NCBI GenBank assembly: GCA_017429945.1
Contig: JAFRNY010000010.1
Span: 1 to 42,299, forward strand
Source: Bacteroidaceae bacterium
GTDB lineage: Bacteria > Bacteroidota > Bacteroidia > Bacteroidales > Bacteroidaceae
Direction: 5' to 3'
DNA: 42,299 bases
The notes beneath the pieces are model-generated. The model did no database searches. It was not told the origin of the DNA and saw nothing but the letters and a program-made list of their open reading frames with translations. Both the position numbers and the translations under genes were made by a program. Positions 4,944 through 30,970 of the stretch are shown here, one piece after another; the first letter of the stretch is position 1; every line of letters starts with the position of its first letter.

Positions 4944-5112
4944 CAATTATTCTGCCACCCCCAAGAATTTATCGATATTTTTTTGAGGGCTTTCATGATT
5001 ATTTACGATATATCGGGCAGTTTTACTCAATGATTTGTTGATGTGAGTCAAGGAAAAGGCCAGTTTTTATGTTTTATAGCATATTTATAGCTCATATTCC
5101 TGCAAAAGCCCG
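4944..5112. other. Divergent AT-rich intergenic region, no gene seen
   Basis: AT-rich DNA between the GH43 promoter (minus) and the small-peptide promoter (plus). No open frame with a plausible start was found. It probably holds upstream control sites for both, but I recognise no named operator. Confidence 0.4.
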
Positions 5113-5120
5113 TACCTTTG
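5113..5120 (+). promoter_or_regulatory. Promoter -7 box of the 41-residue peptide gene
   Basis: TACCTTTG is a perfect TAnnTTTG match, followed by GCA as at other Bacteroidales promoters. It lies about 130 bases upstream of the peptide ATG. The same octamer stands ahead of the outer-membrane barrel gene, the cupin gene and leuS in this window. Confidence 0.7.
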
Positions 5121-5143
5121 CACCAGCAAATCAAAAGAAGGGC

Positions 5144-5218
5144 GAGCCGAGCGCGGCTCATAGAAAGCCCCAAAGATAAAATATTAGGTAAAAGTCCCGT
5201 GAGCCCTCATGTGGCTCA
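5144..5218 (+). promoter_or_regulatory. Two related hairpins in the peptide-gene leader
   Basis: The leader holds two stems sharing the same arms: GAGCCG-agcg-CGGCTC at 5144-5159 and TGAGCC-ctcatgt-GGCTCA at 5200-5218. Because the 5' arm of one can pair with the 3' arm of the other, the leader could switch between two folds. No known riboswitch class was recognised. The second stem ends 33 bases before the start codon. Confidence 0.4.
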
Positions 5219-5251
5219 GGTATATGATTGTTTAATTAAAGGATAACAGAA

Positions 5252-5377
5252 ATGAATGCAATGACTATTGTACTGCTTGCAGTAGCAGCTATTGCAGCAG
5301 TAATGGGATTTGGAATGCGCAACAACAGCAACAACGAATTTACCCCAACAGGTACGTTCCCCGTTCAGCTGGGTTAA
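5252..5377 (+). CDS. 41-residue single-span membrane peptide, unknown function
   Basis: A small open frame beginning MNAMTIVLLAVAAIAAV. Residues 5-22 form one hydrophobic helix, followed by a polar, Asn-rich tail (RNNSNNEF) and a Pro/Thr/Gly end. A purine-rich AAAGGA at 5238-5243 sits 8 bases before the ATG, a better ribosome site than most genes here have. The frame is the only one between a perfect promoter box at 5113 and a strong terminator at 5474, so it makes a complete single-gene unit. It could be a small inner-membrane protein; a signal peptide with a short mature part is the alternative. No family recognised. Flanked by GH43 (divergent) and GH2 (convergent), with no evident link to either. 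Confidence 0.6.
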   Translation: MNAMTIVLLAVAAIAAVMGFGMRNNSNNEFTPTGTFPVQLG

Positions 5378-5473
5378 CGCCCAATCCCTGTCACCAAGCC
5401 GCTGGCACGCGAGTGCCGGCAACCAAAAAAAGAAGAGATTTAGTTAGTTTATAAGGTAAATGATTTTTCAGAG

Positions 5474-5508
5474 AGAACGGCTGTCCGTGAGGATAGCCGT
5501 TCTTTTGT
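5474..5508 (+). terminator. Intrinsic terminator of the small-peptide gene
   Basis: A perfect 9-base stem, AGAACGGCT/AGCCGTTCT, with a 12-base loop is followed by TTTTGTTATATT. A second hairpin, GGCAC-gcga-GTGCC, lies between the peptide stop and this terminator at about 5402-5415. Confidence 0.85.
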
Positions 5509-5567
5509 TATATTATTGCCATTAATTAAGCTCCGCATACTTCTGCTGTTATGCTCTGAGGGCACTG

Positions 5568-5935
5568 CTCTGGGTTAGCTTGTCAGCAATATACGCGCCC
5601 TGACGGGGCAAAAGCATTAAATAATTGGAACTTAAATCTTCCTTAAATCTCACCTTAAATCTTTTCTTAATGCTTCTTCGGCTTATCGCCTCAGAAGTTT
5701 ACGGCCGCATACGGCCTACTCGCTCGTGCCTGCCCTGCGTAGGCTCTGTGGAGCCGTAGCTTCTCGTGTGGCCGATTAGGCACACGAGCTGTAAAGTCAG
5801 CAATGATTTAAGGTGAGATTTAAGGAAGATTTAAGTTCTACATATCTGTTCGCAATAGTGCTTTTGCCCCGTCAGGGCGAATATACCTTTGTCACGGGTT
5901 ACCCAGGGCGTGCCCTGGGCTAACTGCTATATCAT
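5568..5935. repeat. Large foldback (inverted-repeat) element
   Basis: The arms are nested: 5596-5616 pairs perfectly with 5859-5879 (21 bases), and 5628-5661 pairs perfectly with 5805-5838 (34 bases). Weaker outer pairing includes gggttagc/gctaac. The central part has its own stems (GGCTC-tgtg-GAGCC; CTCGTGTG/CACACGAG at 5763-5788), and a perfect palindrome CCCAGGGC-gt-GCCCTGGG lies at 5902-5919. No open frame is present. It fills the gap between convergent genes. The G/C palindromes resemble REP-type sequences, and the whole resembles a non-autonomous, MITE- or BIME-like element. Confidence 0.75.
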
Positions 5936-21965: not shown

Positions 21966-23255
21966 TCATTTTTCAAGAGATGCCAGTTCCTGTGCCATGA
22001 GGTTCAGGGATTGGCATTGCTGTGCGGTGAGCTTATGGCGGTCGTTGTGATGAGGCCAGGGGGAGAGCATGAGCAGACGGCCTTCGGCGCAGGCATAGAA
22101 TTGTTCACCATGGGGCTTAGAGAACGGGGTGAAACCATTTTCCAAGATGACGATGGTGGGGAGCTTAGCGTCGAAGGCGGCACGCATGACGCGTTTCTCG
22201 CCAGGAGAAATGGCAGGGGAAATAAGGACGGTGCCAGATTGTGCAGCAGTCAGGTAGCGGCGTACTTCGTCCTGAAGCTGTGCTTCATTGTTGCGCCGCG
22301 AAACGCGGACTGCAAGGCGGTGAGGAGCGTTGAGAAGGGTGAGGTTGCCAATCCCGTTGTAGGTGTGAGAGCCTATGCGGAGGTCGAAGAAAGGGCGGAG
22401 GTATTCAGGATGGGCGCGCTTCATGAGCAGGCGGCGGGGGTTGTCCTTGACGTAGTTGATGAGGGTGGGGAGCATGTCGTAGCTCTTGCAGATAAGGTCG
22501 TTGTAGTTAGGCTCGAAGAGGAGGCCGTGGTTGCGATCCTCGCGGCGCTCGCGCCTCGCTTTCTGCTGACGTTGCTGACTTAGCTGCGGCACTGCCGCAG
22601 CATACACTGAGCAAGGGTTACCTCCACTGATCTCTACACTGCTGCTTAGCTGCCCTTGGCCGCTGCCACCGGCATTCTCGCCGCCGCCTGGCTGCCCTTG
22701 TCCGCTGCCGCTGGTATTCTCGCCGCCGCCTGGCTGCCATTGGCCGCTGCCGCTGCCATTCTCGCCGCCTGTCAGCCATTGGCCGCTGCTGCCTTGTCCT
22801 TGGCTGTGATTGTGTTCCTTGCTGGGCGTAGACTGCGGCAGTGCCGCAGTGAAGAATCGGTAAGCCTTGTTGCACCCCGTCTTGAATCCGCCAATGATAT
22901 GGCCGAGGTGCTGCTGCGTTTCCTCTTTTATCCATAGAATGCCATGCAGGTGGTCGGGCATAATCTGGAGGGCAAGTATCTCCACCTCTGGATGCCGCTT
23001 TGGAATCTGCTGCCAGCAGTCAAATACAGCTCCTCCCATCGCAGATAGCTCAATCCGCGGCGCATCAGCACTGCCTTCAGCTGCCAGCGGATTACCCACC
23101 ACCTGTCCCAGCAACGGCCGTCGCCCTTCCACCGCCAGCGTCACTAAGTAAATATGACGGCCATGGTAGTCGTTGAGATCGCTGCGCCGCTTCATGGACG
23201 GTTGCTTCTCGCCTGCAAATTCCTCTATGTCCTTCTTCCGTTTTTCGGTCATCAT
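21966..23255 (-). CDS. REP-associated tyrosine transposase (RAYT) with C-terminal domain
   Basis: A 429-residue relative of IS200-type Y1 transposases. The HUH metal site is His102-Leu-His104 in MPDHLHGILWIKE, followed by GHIIGGFKTGCNKAYR (118-133). Candidate catalytic tyrosines lie in FEPNYNDLICKSYDMLPTL (Tyr251, Tyr259) and INYVKDNPRR. Residues 156-206 are a Gly/Gln-rich linker of three to four 14-residue repeats (GGENTSGSGQGQPG) between the two halves of the active site. Residues about 340-425 form the extra domain usual in Bacteroidales members (VLISPAISPGEKRVMRAAFD), which looks Rossmann-like and DprA-like. RAYTs are single-copy and act on REP palindromes rather than moving as insertion sequences; no terminal repeats were seen here. 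Confidence 0.88.
   Translation of the reverse strand: MMTEKRKKDIEEFAGEKQPSMKRRSDLNDYHGRHIYLVTLAVEGRRPLLGQVVGNPLAAEGSADAPRIELSAMGGAVFDCWQQIPKRHPEVEILALQIMPDHLHGILWIKEETQQHLGHIIGGFKTGCNKAYRFFTAALPQSTPSKEHNHSQGQGSSGQWLTGGENGSGSGQWQPGGGENTSGSGQGQPGGGENAGGSGQGQLSSSVEISGGNPCSVYAAAVPQLSQQRQQKARRERREDRNHGLLFEPNYNDLICKSYDMLPTLINYVKDNPRRLLMKRAHPEYLRPFFDLRIGSHTYNGIGNLTLLNAPHRLAVRVSRRNNEAQLQDEVRRYLTAAQSGTVLISPAISPGEKRVMRAAFDAKLPTIVILENGFTPFSKPHGEQFYACAEGRLLMLSPWPHHNDRHKLTAQQCQSLNLMAQELASLEK
22583..22850. repeat. Matching 19-base palindromes around the RAYT linker repeats
   Basis: GCTGCGGCACTGCCGCAGC at 22583-22601 and ACTGCGGCAGTGCCGCAGT at 22832-22850 differ only at the ends and centre. Between them lie three to four imperfect 42-base tandem repeats (about 22638-22790) encoding the Gly-rich linker. 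Both palindromes are within the transposase reading frame. Confidence 0.75.
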
Positions 23256-28084: not shown

Positions 28085-30970
28085 ATGGAATACAATTTCA
28101 GAGACATTGAGAAAAAGTGGCAGCAACGGTGGGTGGCTGCACAGACTTACAAGGTGACAGAGGACGAGAACCGGAAGAAGTTCTACGTCCTGAATATGTT
28201 CCCCTACCCCAGCGGCGCAGGCCTCCACGTAGGCCACCCGCTCGGATATATAGCCTCCGACATCTATGCCCGCTACAAGCGCCTGCAGGGATTCAACGTG
28301 CTCAATCCCATGGGCTACGATGCCTACGGCCTGCCCGCCGAGCAGTACGCCATACAGACGGGTCAGCACCCCGCCATCACCACCGAGCAGAACATTGCAC
28401 GCTACCGTGAGCAGTTGGACAAGATAGGCTTCTCATTCGACTGGAGCCGCGAGGTGCGCACCTGCGACCCCCAGTACTACCACTGGACGCAGTGGGCCTT
28501 CCAACGCATGTTCGGCTCGTTCTATTGCAACACTTGCCATAAAGCCCAGACCATAGAAAAGCTGATAGAGCATTTCGAGAAGCAAGGCACAGCCGACCTC
28601 GACGTCGCCCAGACCGAGGAGCTCTCGTTCACAGCCGATGAATGGCGCGCCAAGAACGATGTGGAGAAGCAGCAGGTGCTCATGAACTACCGCCTGGCCT
28701 ACCTGGCCGAGACGATGGTCAACTGGTGCCCGGCACTGGGCACGGTGCTGGCCAACGACGAGGTGGTCAACGGCGTGAGCGAGCGCGGCGGCTATCCCGT
28801 GGAGCAGAAGCGGATGAAGCAATGGTGCCTGCGCGTCTCGGCCTATGCCCAGCGCCTGCTCGACGGCCTCGACACCATCGACTGGACCGATTCGCTCAAG
28901 GAGACGCAGCGCAACTGGATTGGTCGCTCCGAGGGTGCAGAGATTGTGTTCAAGGTGAAAGATTCTGATAAGAGCTTTACCATCTTCACCACGCGTGCCG
29001 ACACTATGTTCGGCGTCACCTTCATGGTGCTGGCTCCTGAGAGCGAGCTGGTGCAAGAACTGACGACTGCTGAGCAGCGCGCTGCCGTCGACGAATACCT
29101 TGCCTACGTGAAGAAGCGCACCGAGCGCGACCGCATCAGCGACCGCAAGGTCACAGGCGTCTTCTCAGGCTCCTACGCCATCAACCCCTTCACGGGCGAG
29201 GCCAATCCCATCTGGATCTCAGAATACGTGCTCGCCGGCTACGGCACGGGCGCCATCATGGCAGTGCCCGCTCACGACTCGCGCGACTATGCCTTCGCCA
29301 AGCACTTCGGCCTGCCCATAGTGCCGCTTGTCGAAGGCTGCGATATCAGCGAGGAGAGCTTCGATGCCAAGGAAGGCATCGTCTGCAACAGTCCGCGCAC
29401 GGGTGTCACTCCATATATTGATTTCTCGCTCAACGGCCTCACCATCAAGGAAGCTATCGCAGCCACGAAGAAATACGTGCGCGAACACAACCTCGGCCGC
29501 GTGAAGGTCAACTACCGCCTGCGCGACGCCATCTTCTCGCGCCAGCGCTACTGGGGCGAGCCCTTCCCCGTTTACTACAAGGATGGTATGCCGCAAATGG
29601 TGCCCGAGGAGTGTCTGCCGCTGGAGCTGCCCGAGGTAGATAAGTTCCTGCCCACCGAGACGGGCGAGCCGCCTCTTGGCAACGCCAAGCGCTGGGCGTG
29701 GGACACGAAGACAAAGACAGTAGTCGATAATTCCGCTATCGACAACGTGACCGTCTTCCCCCTCGAACTCAACACCATGCCGGGCTTCGCAGGCTCATCG
29801 GCCTACTATCTCCGCTATATGGACCCGAAGAACGACGAGGCACTCGTCTCGTCAAAGGCCGACAACTATTGGCAGTCCGTAGACCTCTACGTAGGCGGCT
29901 CGGAGCACGCCACGGGTCACCTCATCTATTCGCGTTTCTGGAACAAGTTCCTCTTCGACCTCGGCGTGAGCTGCAAGGAAGAGCCCTTCCAGAAGCTCGT
30001 CAACCAAGGCATGATCCAAGGCCGCTCAAACTTCGTTTACAGAATTAACACTGAGGGCGCAGAGAATAATGCAGAGCTCAAAGAGATGATGGCCAAGGGG
30101 CCCGTCTTCGTCAGCGCAGGTCTCAAGGACCAATATGATGTCACGCCCCTGCACGTCGACGTCAACATCGTCAGCGCCGACGTTCTCGACATCGAAGCCT
30201 TCAAGGCTTGGCGCCCCGAATACGCCAATGCCCAGTTCATTCTCGAGGACGGTCGCTACGTCTGCGGCTGGGCTGTGGAGAAGATGTCTAAGTCGATGTT
30301 CAACGTCGTCAACCCCGATATGATTGTCGAGAAGTTCGGCGCCGACACACTCCGCCTGTATGAGATGTTCCTCGGCCCTGTAGAGCAGGCCAAGCCCTGG
30401 GACACCAACGGCATCGACGGCTCGCACCGCTTCCTGAAGAAGTTCTGGAACCTGGCACAAAGTATTATAGCACAGAGCGAACAGAATACTCCGAGCAATC
30501 CGAGCCCTGCCGAGCTGAAAGCGCTGCACAAGCTCATCAAGAAGGTGACCGAGGACATCGAGGTCTTCTCTTACAACACCTCAATCCCCGCCTTCATGAT
30601 TGCCACCAACGAGCTCTCGCAGCTCAAGTGCACGAATCGCGCCATCCTCGAGCCCATGGTCATTCTCATCGCTCCCTTCGCACCGCACATCGCCGAAGAA
30701 CTGTGGGAACAGCTGGGCCACACCACCTCGGTCTGCGATGCCCAGTGGCCGGTGTTCGAGGAGAAATACCTGGTCGAAGACACGGTGAAGATGATGGTTG
30801 CCTTCAACGGCAAGACACGCTTCAGCATCGACTTCCCTGCCGATGCCGACAATGCCACCATCGAAGCCGCCGCACGCGCCCATGAGCTCACGCCCAAGTA
30901 TCTCGAAGGCAAGTCAATCATCAAAGTGATCATCGTGCCTAAACGCATGATAAACATCGTAATGAAATAA
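28085..30970 (+). CDS. leuS: Leucine-tRNA ligase
   Basis: A 961-residue class I synthetase that charges tRNA-Leu. The HIGH-type motif is [15 protein letters not shown] (about 40-54) and KMSKS lies at 733-737. The editing domain is in the usual CP1 insertion (about 230-430), with the threonine-rich [13 protein letters not shown] near residue 300. Gene length is a little over the norm. A likely extra is [18 protein letters not shown] (about 655-672), where relatives I recall have a short loop; its DNA resembles a cagagggcgcagagaa-type repeat. Own promoter and strong terminator. Confidence 0.97.

Follow-up and report, generated by a model that had tools for sequence, protein, structure and literature searches.

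The window, a 42,299-nt stretch of DNA from a bacterium of the family Bacteroidaceae, carries on its forward strand a compact candidate transcription unit with the following features.

5038 to 5051, forward strand: CRP/FNR-type palindrome TTGATGTGAGTCAA, termed the N-box, its first base 75 nt upstream of the -7 box
5068 to 5083, forward strand: Cur/BT4338-like palindrome TATGTTTTATAGCATA, with one mismatch in its second half-site
5113 to 5120, forward strand: -7 promoter box TACCTTTG, read from the sequence and kept in relatives
About 5123 (approximate start) to 5251, forward strand: 5′ leader of ~129 nt
5140 to 5170, forward strand: leader hairpin 1, formed by GAGCCG (5144 to 5149) and CGGCTC (5154 to 5159) and lengthened by GGGC (5140 to 5143) and GCCC (5167 to 5170)
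5183 to 5248, forward strand: predicted sRNA-complementary site (RNAduplex −38.7 kcal/mol against nucleotides 1 to 50 of the BTnc060-like sRNA of genome G111)
5199 to 5219, forward strand: leader hairpin 2, formed by TGAGCC (5200 to 5205) and GGCTCA (5213 to 5218)
5238 to 5243, forward strand: AAAGGA, the ribosome-binding region
5252 to 5377, forward strand: 41-codon ORF for a putative one-helix membrane peptide, MNAMTIVLLAVAAIAAVMGFGMRNNSNNEFTPTGTFPVQLG (ATG at 5252, stop codon 5375 to 5377)
5440 to 5466, forward strand: 27-nt 3′ segment, defined by alignment of relatives and partly complementary to the BTnc060-like sRNA
5474 to 5506, forward strand: intrinsic terminator found by sequence reading and folding, with stem 5474 to 5486 / 5491 to 5503, a GTGA loop, and a U run to 5506

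A preliminary description of this DNA had reported the -7 box, the leader with its two hairpins, the AAAGGA sequence, the ORF, and the terminator. All are present, and their positions were re-checked. Frame, leader, and terminator are all kept in relatives among the genus loci compared. The sequence of the terminator stem varies in the alignment, with pairing mostly preserved as judged by reading. Folding of 5124 to 5520 yields a z-score of −5.8, and the leader alone folds at z −2.0, a level matched by 4 of 200 shuffles. A search of the unit against Rfam returned no family at its gathering score; a further search for known RNA families yielded tRNAs alone, and all other matches were weak and below threshold. 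The best weak match, L20_leader in the 3′ region, reached 27.5 bits versus the 58.7 needed, and the unit was not assigned to any riboswitch or cis-regulatory family. On the 3′ side of the terminator lies a long nested inverted repeat (5590 to 5667 and 5799 to 5885), whose arms show 89% complementarity over 47 nt and 90% over 30 nt. This repeat is perhaps a small palindromic element.

The two leader hairpins had initially been noted to share the same arms, which raised the idea that two competing folds control expression. Arm sharing holds in the window genome (G000), but not in G111, where GAACC/GGTTC stands against GAGCC/GGCTC, and is only partly kept in G027. Reading of the orthologous loci also showed that a second hairpin of this kind is absent in G126, G010, G114, and G072. 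A cis-acting switch, based either on competing folds or on a riboswitch that controls the peptide, would draw on the shared arms in the window genome and on a closing helix that leader folding predicts between the RNA start and GAUUGUUU. In the predicted fold, this helix could mask that portion of the sRNA-pairing site. We consider such a switch very improbable, because the shared arms are not conserved, no Rfam family was matched at its gathering score, and several conserved leader blocks coincide with the blocks that are predicted to pair with an sRNA.

The preliminary description regarded the 41-codon frame as a genuine small gene with one membrane helix, and pointed to peptide searches in relatives and codon-substitution patterns as ways to examine it. 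Both approaches bear out the proposal. When the peptide was searched against a genus set of 139 genomes, matches at E-values up to 1 appeared in 21. Three clear orthologs outside the window genome were evident at 90, 90, and 80% identity, and a fourth (G017), only 35% identical, was recognized through its leader. The matches kept were those in G000, G011, G111, G027, and G017; the remainder were dropped as unrelated frames. Six pairs within the close group gave dN/dS values of 0.11 to 0.38, and six pairs of a second ORF group gave 0.28 to 0.40 when aligned from the ATG without gaps despite unequal lengths (37 to 39 codons). Thus 12 of 13 pairs fall between 0.11 and 0.40, and the remaining pair (G017/G106) is undefined since it has no synonymous change. 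Summed pN/pS in the close group was 0.28 in frame versus 1.23 and 1.02 in the two alternative frames. Judged by these substitution patterns, the frame is under selection at the protein level.

Synonymous changes are unevenly distributed along the gene. Summed over six pairs, codons 1 to 24 (window 5252 to 5323) carry 17 changes on 106 sites versus 49 on 70.5 sites in the tail, and the scarcity in the former suggests that these codons may also be constrained as RNA. The peptide has a single hydrophobic stretch, with the highest 19-residue hydropathy mean (2.38) starting from residue 4. Comparisons with Pfam revealed no family, and those with PHROGs and NCBIfam gave only weak matches, the NCBIfam ones being under their cut-offs.

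A DNA search with 5430 to 5512 found matches in 38 of the 139 genomes at E-values up to 0.01, and 30 of these were recovered as loci and read. Outside the 30 are G094, which has a long match from which no locus was recovered, and weaker matches. In 20 loci the flanks read (up to 1.5 kb) include the C-terminus of metG or V-ATPase subunit E, and in eight they include both. This shared genomic setting, together with the sequence similarity, indicates that the unit is orthologous across the 30 loci. A GH2 gene separates the RNA from the V-ATPase gene in the window, L095, L118, L121, and L127.

The ORF is intact in 10 of the 30 loci and missing from the other 20, of which five retain the leader (G019, G130, G046, G059, and G138) and 15 are shorter. 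One of these shorter members, G022, possesses a leader-like site. Among the 20 ORF-less RNAs, 15 contain no frame of at least 15 codons and five have short frames that are unlike the peptide, the longest being 30 codons (G109). The peptide is therefore an optional part of the unit, whose promoter, 3′ segment, and terminator stay in place without the ORF.

A candidate binding partner, an sRNA, emerged from a family search and reading of its matches; its core is reverse-complementary to the conserved blocks of the window RNA. Among known systems, this partner comes closest to the Bacteroides sRNA BTnc060 and to the FopS/GibS group of Bacteroides thetaiotaomicron. Six of six loci tested in the genus match the Rfam family BTnc060 (RF04184) at 49 to 67 bits, and five loci of genus g6 match at 60 to 73 bits, mainly in the 3′ half of BTnc060. 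Because none of these 11 loci (49 to 73 bits) reaches the gathering score of 228.9, the partner is termed only “BTnc060-like”. The likeness concerns this partner and not the window RNA itself.

The sRNA pattern TTATCCTGN{2,8}CAATCNTTNTACCTT is present in 89 of the 139 genus genomes, with one match in 88 of them and two in G123, and the reversed pattern is found in none. Among the 30 genomes carrying a window-type RNA, 28 also have the sRNA. It was not found in the window genome, which is an 82%-complete draft, nor in the draft G109. As described for FopS in passages of two reports (PMC11697453; PMC7366714), the genus sRNA has a single-stranded 5′ part followed by a terminator. In contrast to the 12 to 15 FopS copies per Bacteroides genome given there, it mostly produces one match per genome.

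Ten of the 89 matching genomes carry an insertion variant of the sRNA, GAAATAAACAATC, and these are exactly nine ORF-bearing genomes plus G138, which has the leader and no ORF. In the leaders of these ten genomes the matching spacer is longer, and the insertion and the leader match may represent one shared event. Other sRNA insertions exist in G001, G119, G004, G006, and G069, where the search revealed no window-type 3′ region.

The predicted duplex between the window leader and the sRNA is built from six blocks (5184 to 5190, 5193 to 5197, 5199 to 5200, 5218 to 5222, 5226 to 5234, and 5240 to 5247), and the complementary blocks are spread over about 48 nt. Positions 5201 to 5217, which belong to hairpin 2, are looped out of the duplex. 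The last block spans the ribosome-binding region and ends 4 nt before the start codon. Across 15 leader-bearing genomes the duplex energies range from −31.9 to −42.1 kcal/mol, where G000, whose own sRNA was not found, was represented by the sRNA of G111. When 1,686 segments of 150 nt from both strands of the 42 kb were compared, the leader ranked first (z −5.3) and led the next-best region by 6 kcal/mol. The next-best regions, 28851 to 29050 (−31.1 kcal/mol) and 22301 to 22500 (−30.4 kcal/mol), overlap open frames. The 3′ element ranked only 22nd of the 1,686, and its consensus segment alone gave −19.3 kcal/mol (z −2.6).

Shuffling (100 RNA shuffles for each of the 28 genomes having both RNAs) separated the loci by type. 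In nine ORF-bearing genomes z ranged from −6.1 to −7.9 and no shuffle of 100 was equally good, in five leader-only genomes from −3.3 to −5.7, and in 14 short members from −1.4 to −4.0, which is modest complementarity. For G108, G081, G132, G125, and G097, 10 to 14 of 100 sRNA shuffles were equally good. The RNA used for G082 in the duplex and shuffle tests begins ~30 nt too early, and its pairing falls elsewhere. Extended leader complementarity to a conserved sRNA thus exceeds both shuffles and genomic background in leader-bearing members, and complementarity is weak in the short members without an ORF.

Some of the RNAs also favored the sRNA of their own genome, less cleanly when more variants were compared. 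Against 11 sRNA variants, and with relatedness ignored, the genome's own sRNA took the top rank for 15 of 28 genomes (once in a tie), with a mean rank of 3.07 versus the 6 expected. These 15 comprise the ten genomes with GAAATAAACAATC plus G019, G130, G046, G077, and G088 (tied), and most short members showed no preference for their own sRNA. When 20 chosen RNAs were compared with 21 variants, again ignoring relatedness, the own sRNA ranked first in 11 (two tied), second in G027, G126, G010, and G046, third in G059, G038, and G112, fourth in G026, ninth in G091, and tenth in G022.

Diverged RNAs of the genus are also predicted to pair. L150 to L153 pair with their own sRNA at z −3.7 to −4.4, and L156 pairs with a generic sRNA at z −6.7. 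For L141 with the generic sRNA, none of 300 target shuffles and two of 300 sRNA shuffles were equally good. L138 of genus g6, which had the look of a relative, was rejected (44 of 300 shuffles equally good), as were L154 (24 of 300) and L157 (239 of 300).

These findings bear on two alternative explanations. In the first, the 3′ segment together with the terminator constitutes a separate trans-acting sRNA that has its own targets or a site for a protein (an RRM protein like RbpB, for instance), and complementarity to the BTnc060-like sRNA is of secondary importance. Positions 5440 to 5466 are identical in 28 of 28 aligned sequences (two near-duplicates omitted), a figure that is partly a selection effect because the loci were found and excised by similarity to this same 3′ region. 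Even so, the segment varies less than the part of the sRNA available to pair with it, and weak pairing with so variable a region does not explain its identity. Because this constancy exceeds the needs of sRNA pairing, a protein or a second target was considered, and the segment may bind one or the other. Also compatible with an independent sRNA is the makeup of the short members, which consist of little beyond the 3′ segment and terminator. However, leader complementarity is far above background, and L150 to L153 and L156 pair despite missing the canonical 27-nt segment, so we view this alternative as somewhat unlikely.

An exact 20-mer was found in 46 stretches, of which 31 are Bacteroidales records, many with ruminant names. 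The other 15, from Pelagibacteraceae and other groups, were attributed to chance, and no plasmid copies of the unit were found. With the family model R1, matches below 46 bits were not counted as members. Genus g14 contains a short unit that combines TTAGTTAGTTAGTT with a hairpin whose loop is of the CGTGAG type (L079, L085, L088, and L090; in reverse L073, L078, L082, and L084).

The second alternative holds that the RNA is a plain mRNA for a small membrane peptide, and that a BTnc060-like sRNA targets its ribosome-binding region without any sponge activity. The position of the predicted pairing and the selection acting on the ORF are both in keeping with this arrangement, as is the statement, in passages of a report on Bacteroides thetaiotaomicron, that the FopS and GibS sRNAs bind mRNA start regions (PMC11697453). 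Against it stand the five loci where a complementary leader persists without the ORF, and the 15 further loci that lack such an ORF. With 20 loci lacking the ORF, five of them with a complementary leader, translation control cannot be the general function, and we judge a purely messenger role to be rather unlikely.

The promoter region furnishes additional clues. The palindrome TTGAYnnnnRTCAA is present in all 30 orthologous promoters. In 29 of them it begins 74 to 76 nt upstream of the -7 box, and in G088 the distance is 85 nt. For G082 this count uses the spacing of 75 from the true box, since the scripted value of 45 resulted from the choice of an upstream -7-like box. Promoters with an N-box at such spacing were detected in 138 of the 139 genus genomes, a few in each, and the reversed pattern in none. 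Among the matches listed, the units so equipped include divergent P-II/amtB and dapF, a semialdehyde dehydrogenase, RNAs upstream of mutS and of a pyrE-like phosphoribosyltransferase gene, a gene resembling DUF2807, mini-RNAs, and a further membrane peptide, 29 amino acids long. Pfam backs the gene names, with DUF2807 just under its cut-off. By its sequence pattern, then, the N-box promoter type is also found upstream of nitrogen-assimilation genes (P-II/amtB and dapF). The earlier view that the neighbors reveal nothing about function is not supported, given the orthology in 30 loci, the sRNA-complementary leader, and this nitrogen-gene promoter type.

Complementarity to the sRNA is found in only part of this promoter group. 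Among 44 N-box 5′ regions compared with the generic sRNA, 16 fell below z −3 (60 shuffles) and 28 lacked strong complementarity; excluding repeats (three places occurred twice) and three window-type RNAs, 13 of 38 fell below z −3. One N-box RNA, L261 (contig C18 of G000, from 53035), is located upstream of a pyrE-like gene and is near-continuously complementary to the BTnc060-like sRNA (−36.8 kcal/mol). Very short N-box RNAs (L237, L241, L242, and L243) contain TTTTTCATGGTATTAG, end in a terminator-like hairpin, and are sRNA-complementary. The second tiny membrane peptide gene with an N-box promoter is seen at L260 (contig C24 of G000, 24248, minus strand), L262, and L265 to L272. Its leaders carry AGGATAAC, and in G000, where it encodes 29 amino acids, AAAGGTAAAAGGATTATG is found at its start. 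These leaders pair weakly with the sRNA (z −0.4 to −2.6).

A short hydrophobic peptide whose ribosome-binding region is complementary to an sRNA would also be expected of a type I toxin–antitoxin-like system, in which a trans-encoded sRNA represses a small toxin. Such an assignment seems highly unlikely, because the sRNA pattern occurs in 89 of 139 genomes versus the ORF in 10 of 30 loci, and because the promoter type is common to metabolic genes.

The second palindrome resembles the binding site of Cur (BT4338), for which the consensus wwwTATGTTnTAnAACATAwww appears in passages of a published study (PMC6989115). A relaxed Cur-like pattern was found in 19 of the 30 orthologous promoters and is missing from 11, and a slightly different relaxed pattern occurs upstream of 34 of 39 BTnc060-like sRNA genes. 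Similar palindromes, in relaxed form, precede many of the window-type RNAs and most copies of the presumed partner, whereas the distal TTGAYnnnnRTCAA box differs from the Cur consensus as given in that source. The window genome encodes two CRP-type proteins.

On the basis of these observations, we propose that the unit produces a regulatory RNA that would pair with a BTnc060-like sRNA encoded elsewhere in the chromosome, mainly as a decoy, or sponge, and that would also gate synthesis of the peptide. We assign this interpretation a probability of roughly 0.6. It is supported by conservation of the unit, by coding selection, by leader complementarity beyond shuffles and background, and by the shared promoter type; from these we infer transcription, the actual pairing, titration, and the translational block. 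When its promoter is active, the window RNA would accumulate and pair with the sRNA, and thereby free the targets of the sRNA. The same duplex would block peptide synthesis until the sRNA is exhausted. Since the predicted duplex stops just 4 nt short of the start codon, peptide synthesis would require more decoy than sRNA.

A broader model can be sketched more tentatively. The N-box would tie the promoter of the decoy RNA to those of P-II/amtB and dapF, and the Cur-like box is common to many of these RNAs and to most copies of the sRNA. We speculate that an RNA circuit balances carbon and nitrogen, in which a Cur-type promoter drives one sRNA and a nitrogen-linked CRP/FNR-type promoter drives several decoy-carrying transcripts (the window RNA, the pyrE-upstream RNA, the mutS-upstream RNA, and the mini-RNAs). 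Their ratio would determine how strongly nitrogen genes, surface genes, and genes for tiny membrane peptides are translated; these peptides may act on the ammonium transporter or on the envelope. Here we infer the nitrogen and carbon signals, their direction, and the function of the peptide. In passages of a study of Prevotella ruminicola (PMC5552732), amtB, PRU_1977, glnK, and asnB changed most between ammonium levels, dapF belonged to a neighboring cluster, and glnK was higher on non-limiting ammonium, an unexpected direction. Given this observation, the proposed nitrogen signal could run either way. Such an RNA in an uncultured rumen-type bacterium, with its peptide and its predicted pairing, hints at a way in which carbon and nitrogen supply may be balanced there. 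If the proposal is correct, the locus provides a decoy directed at a widespread group of sRNAs, accompanied by easily missed membrane peptides, as well as a testable connection between the control of carbon and that of nitrogen in rumen bacteria.

Regulators of both kinds, sponge RNAs and dual-function RNAs, are already known. RNAs of the SgrS/SgrT type are dual-function molecules that regulate and also encode a peptide. Like them, the window transcript would both act as an RNA and encode a small protein, but its proposed role is that of an sRNA decoy and its ORF is present in only 10 of 30 loci. Among the matches listed in a literature search whose scope excluded preprints and most subscription journals, titles and the starts of abstracts described no sponge RNA for a Bacteroidota sRNA; among the matches listed, they likewise described no nitrogen regulon with a TTGAYnnnnRTCAA promoter. 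Bacterial sponge (anti-sRNA) RNAs, such as the feast–famine sponge of Caulobacter (PMC12559287), are likewise complementary to a regulatory sRNA and linked to nutrients. The window RNA differs from such sponges in that its pairing blocks extend over ~48 nt, an optional ORF is present with its ribosome-binding region inside the putative decoy, and several further loci share the same promoter.
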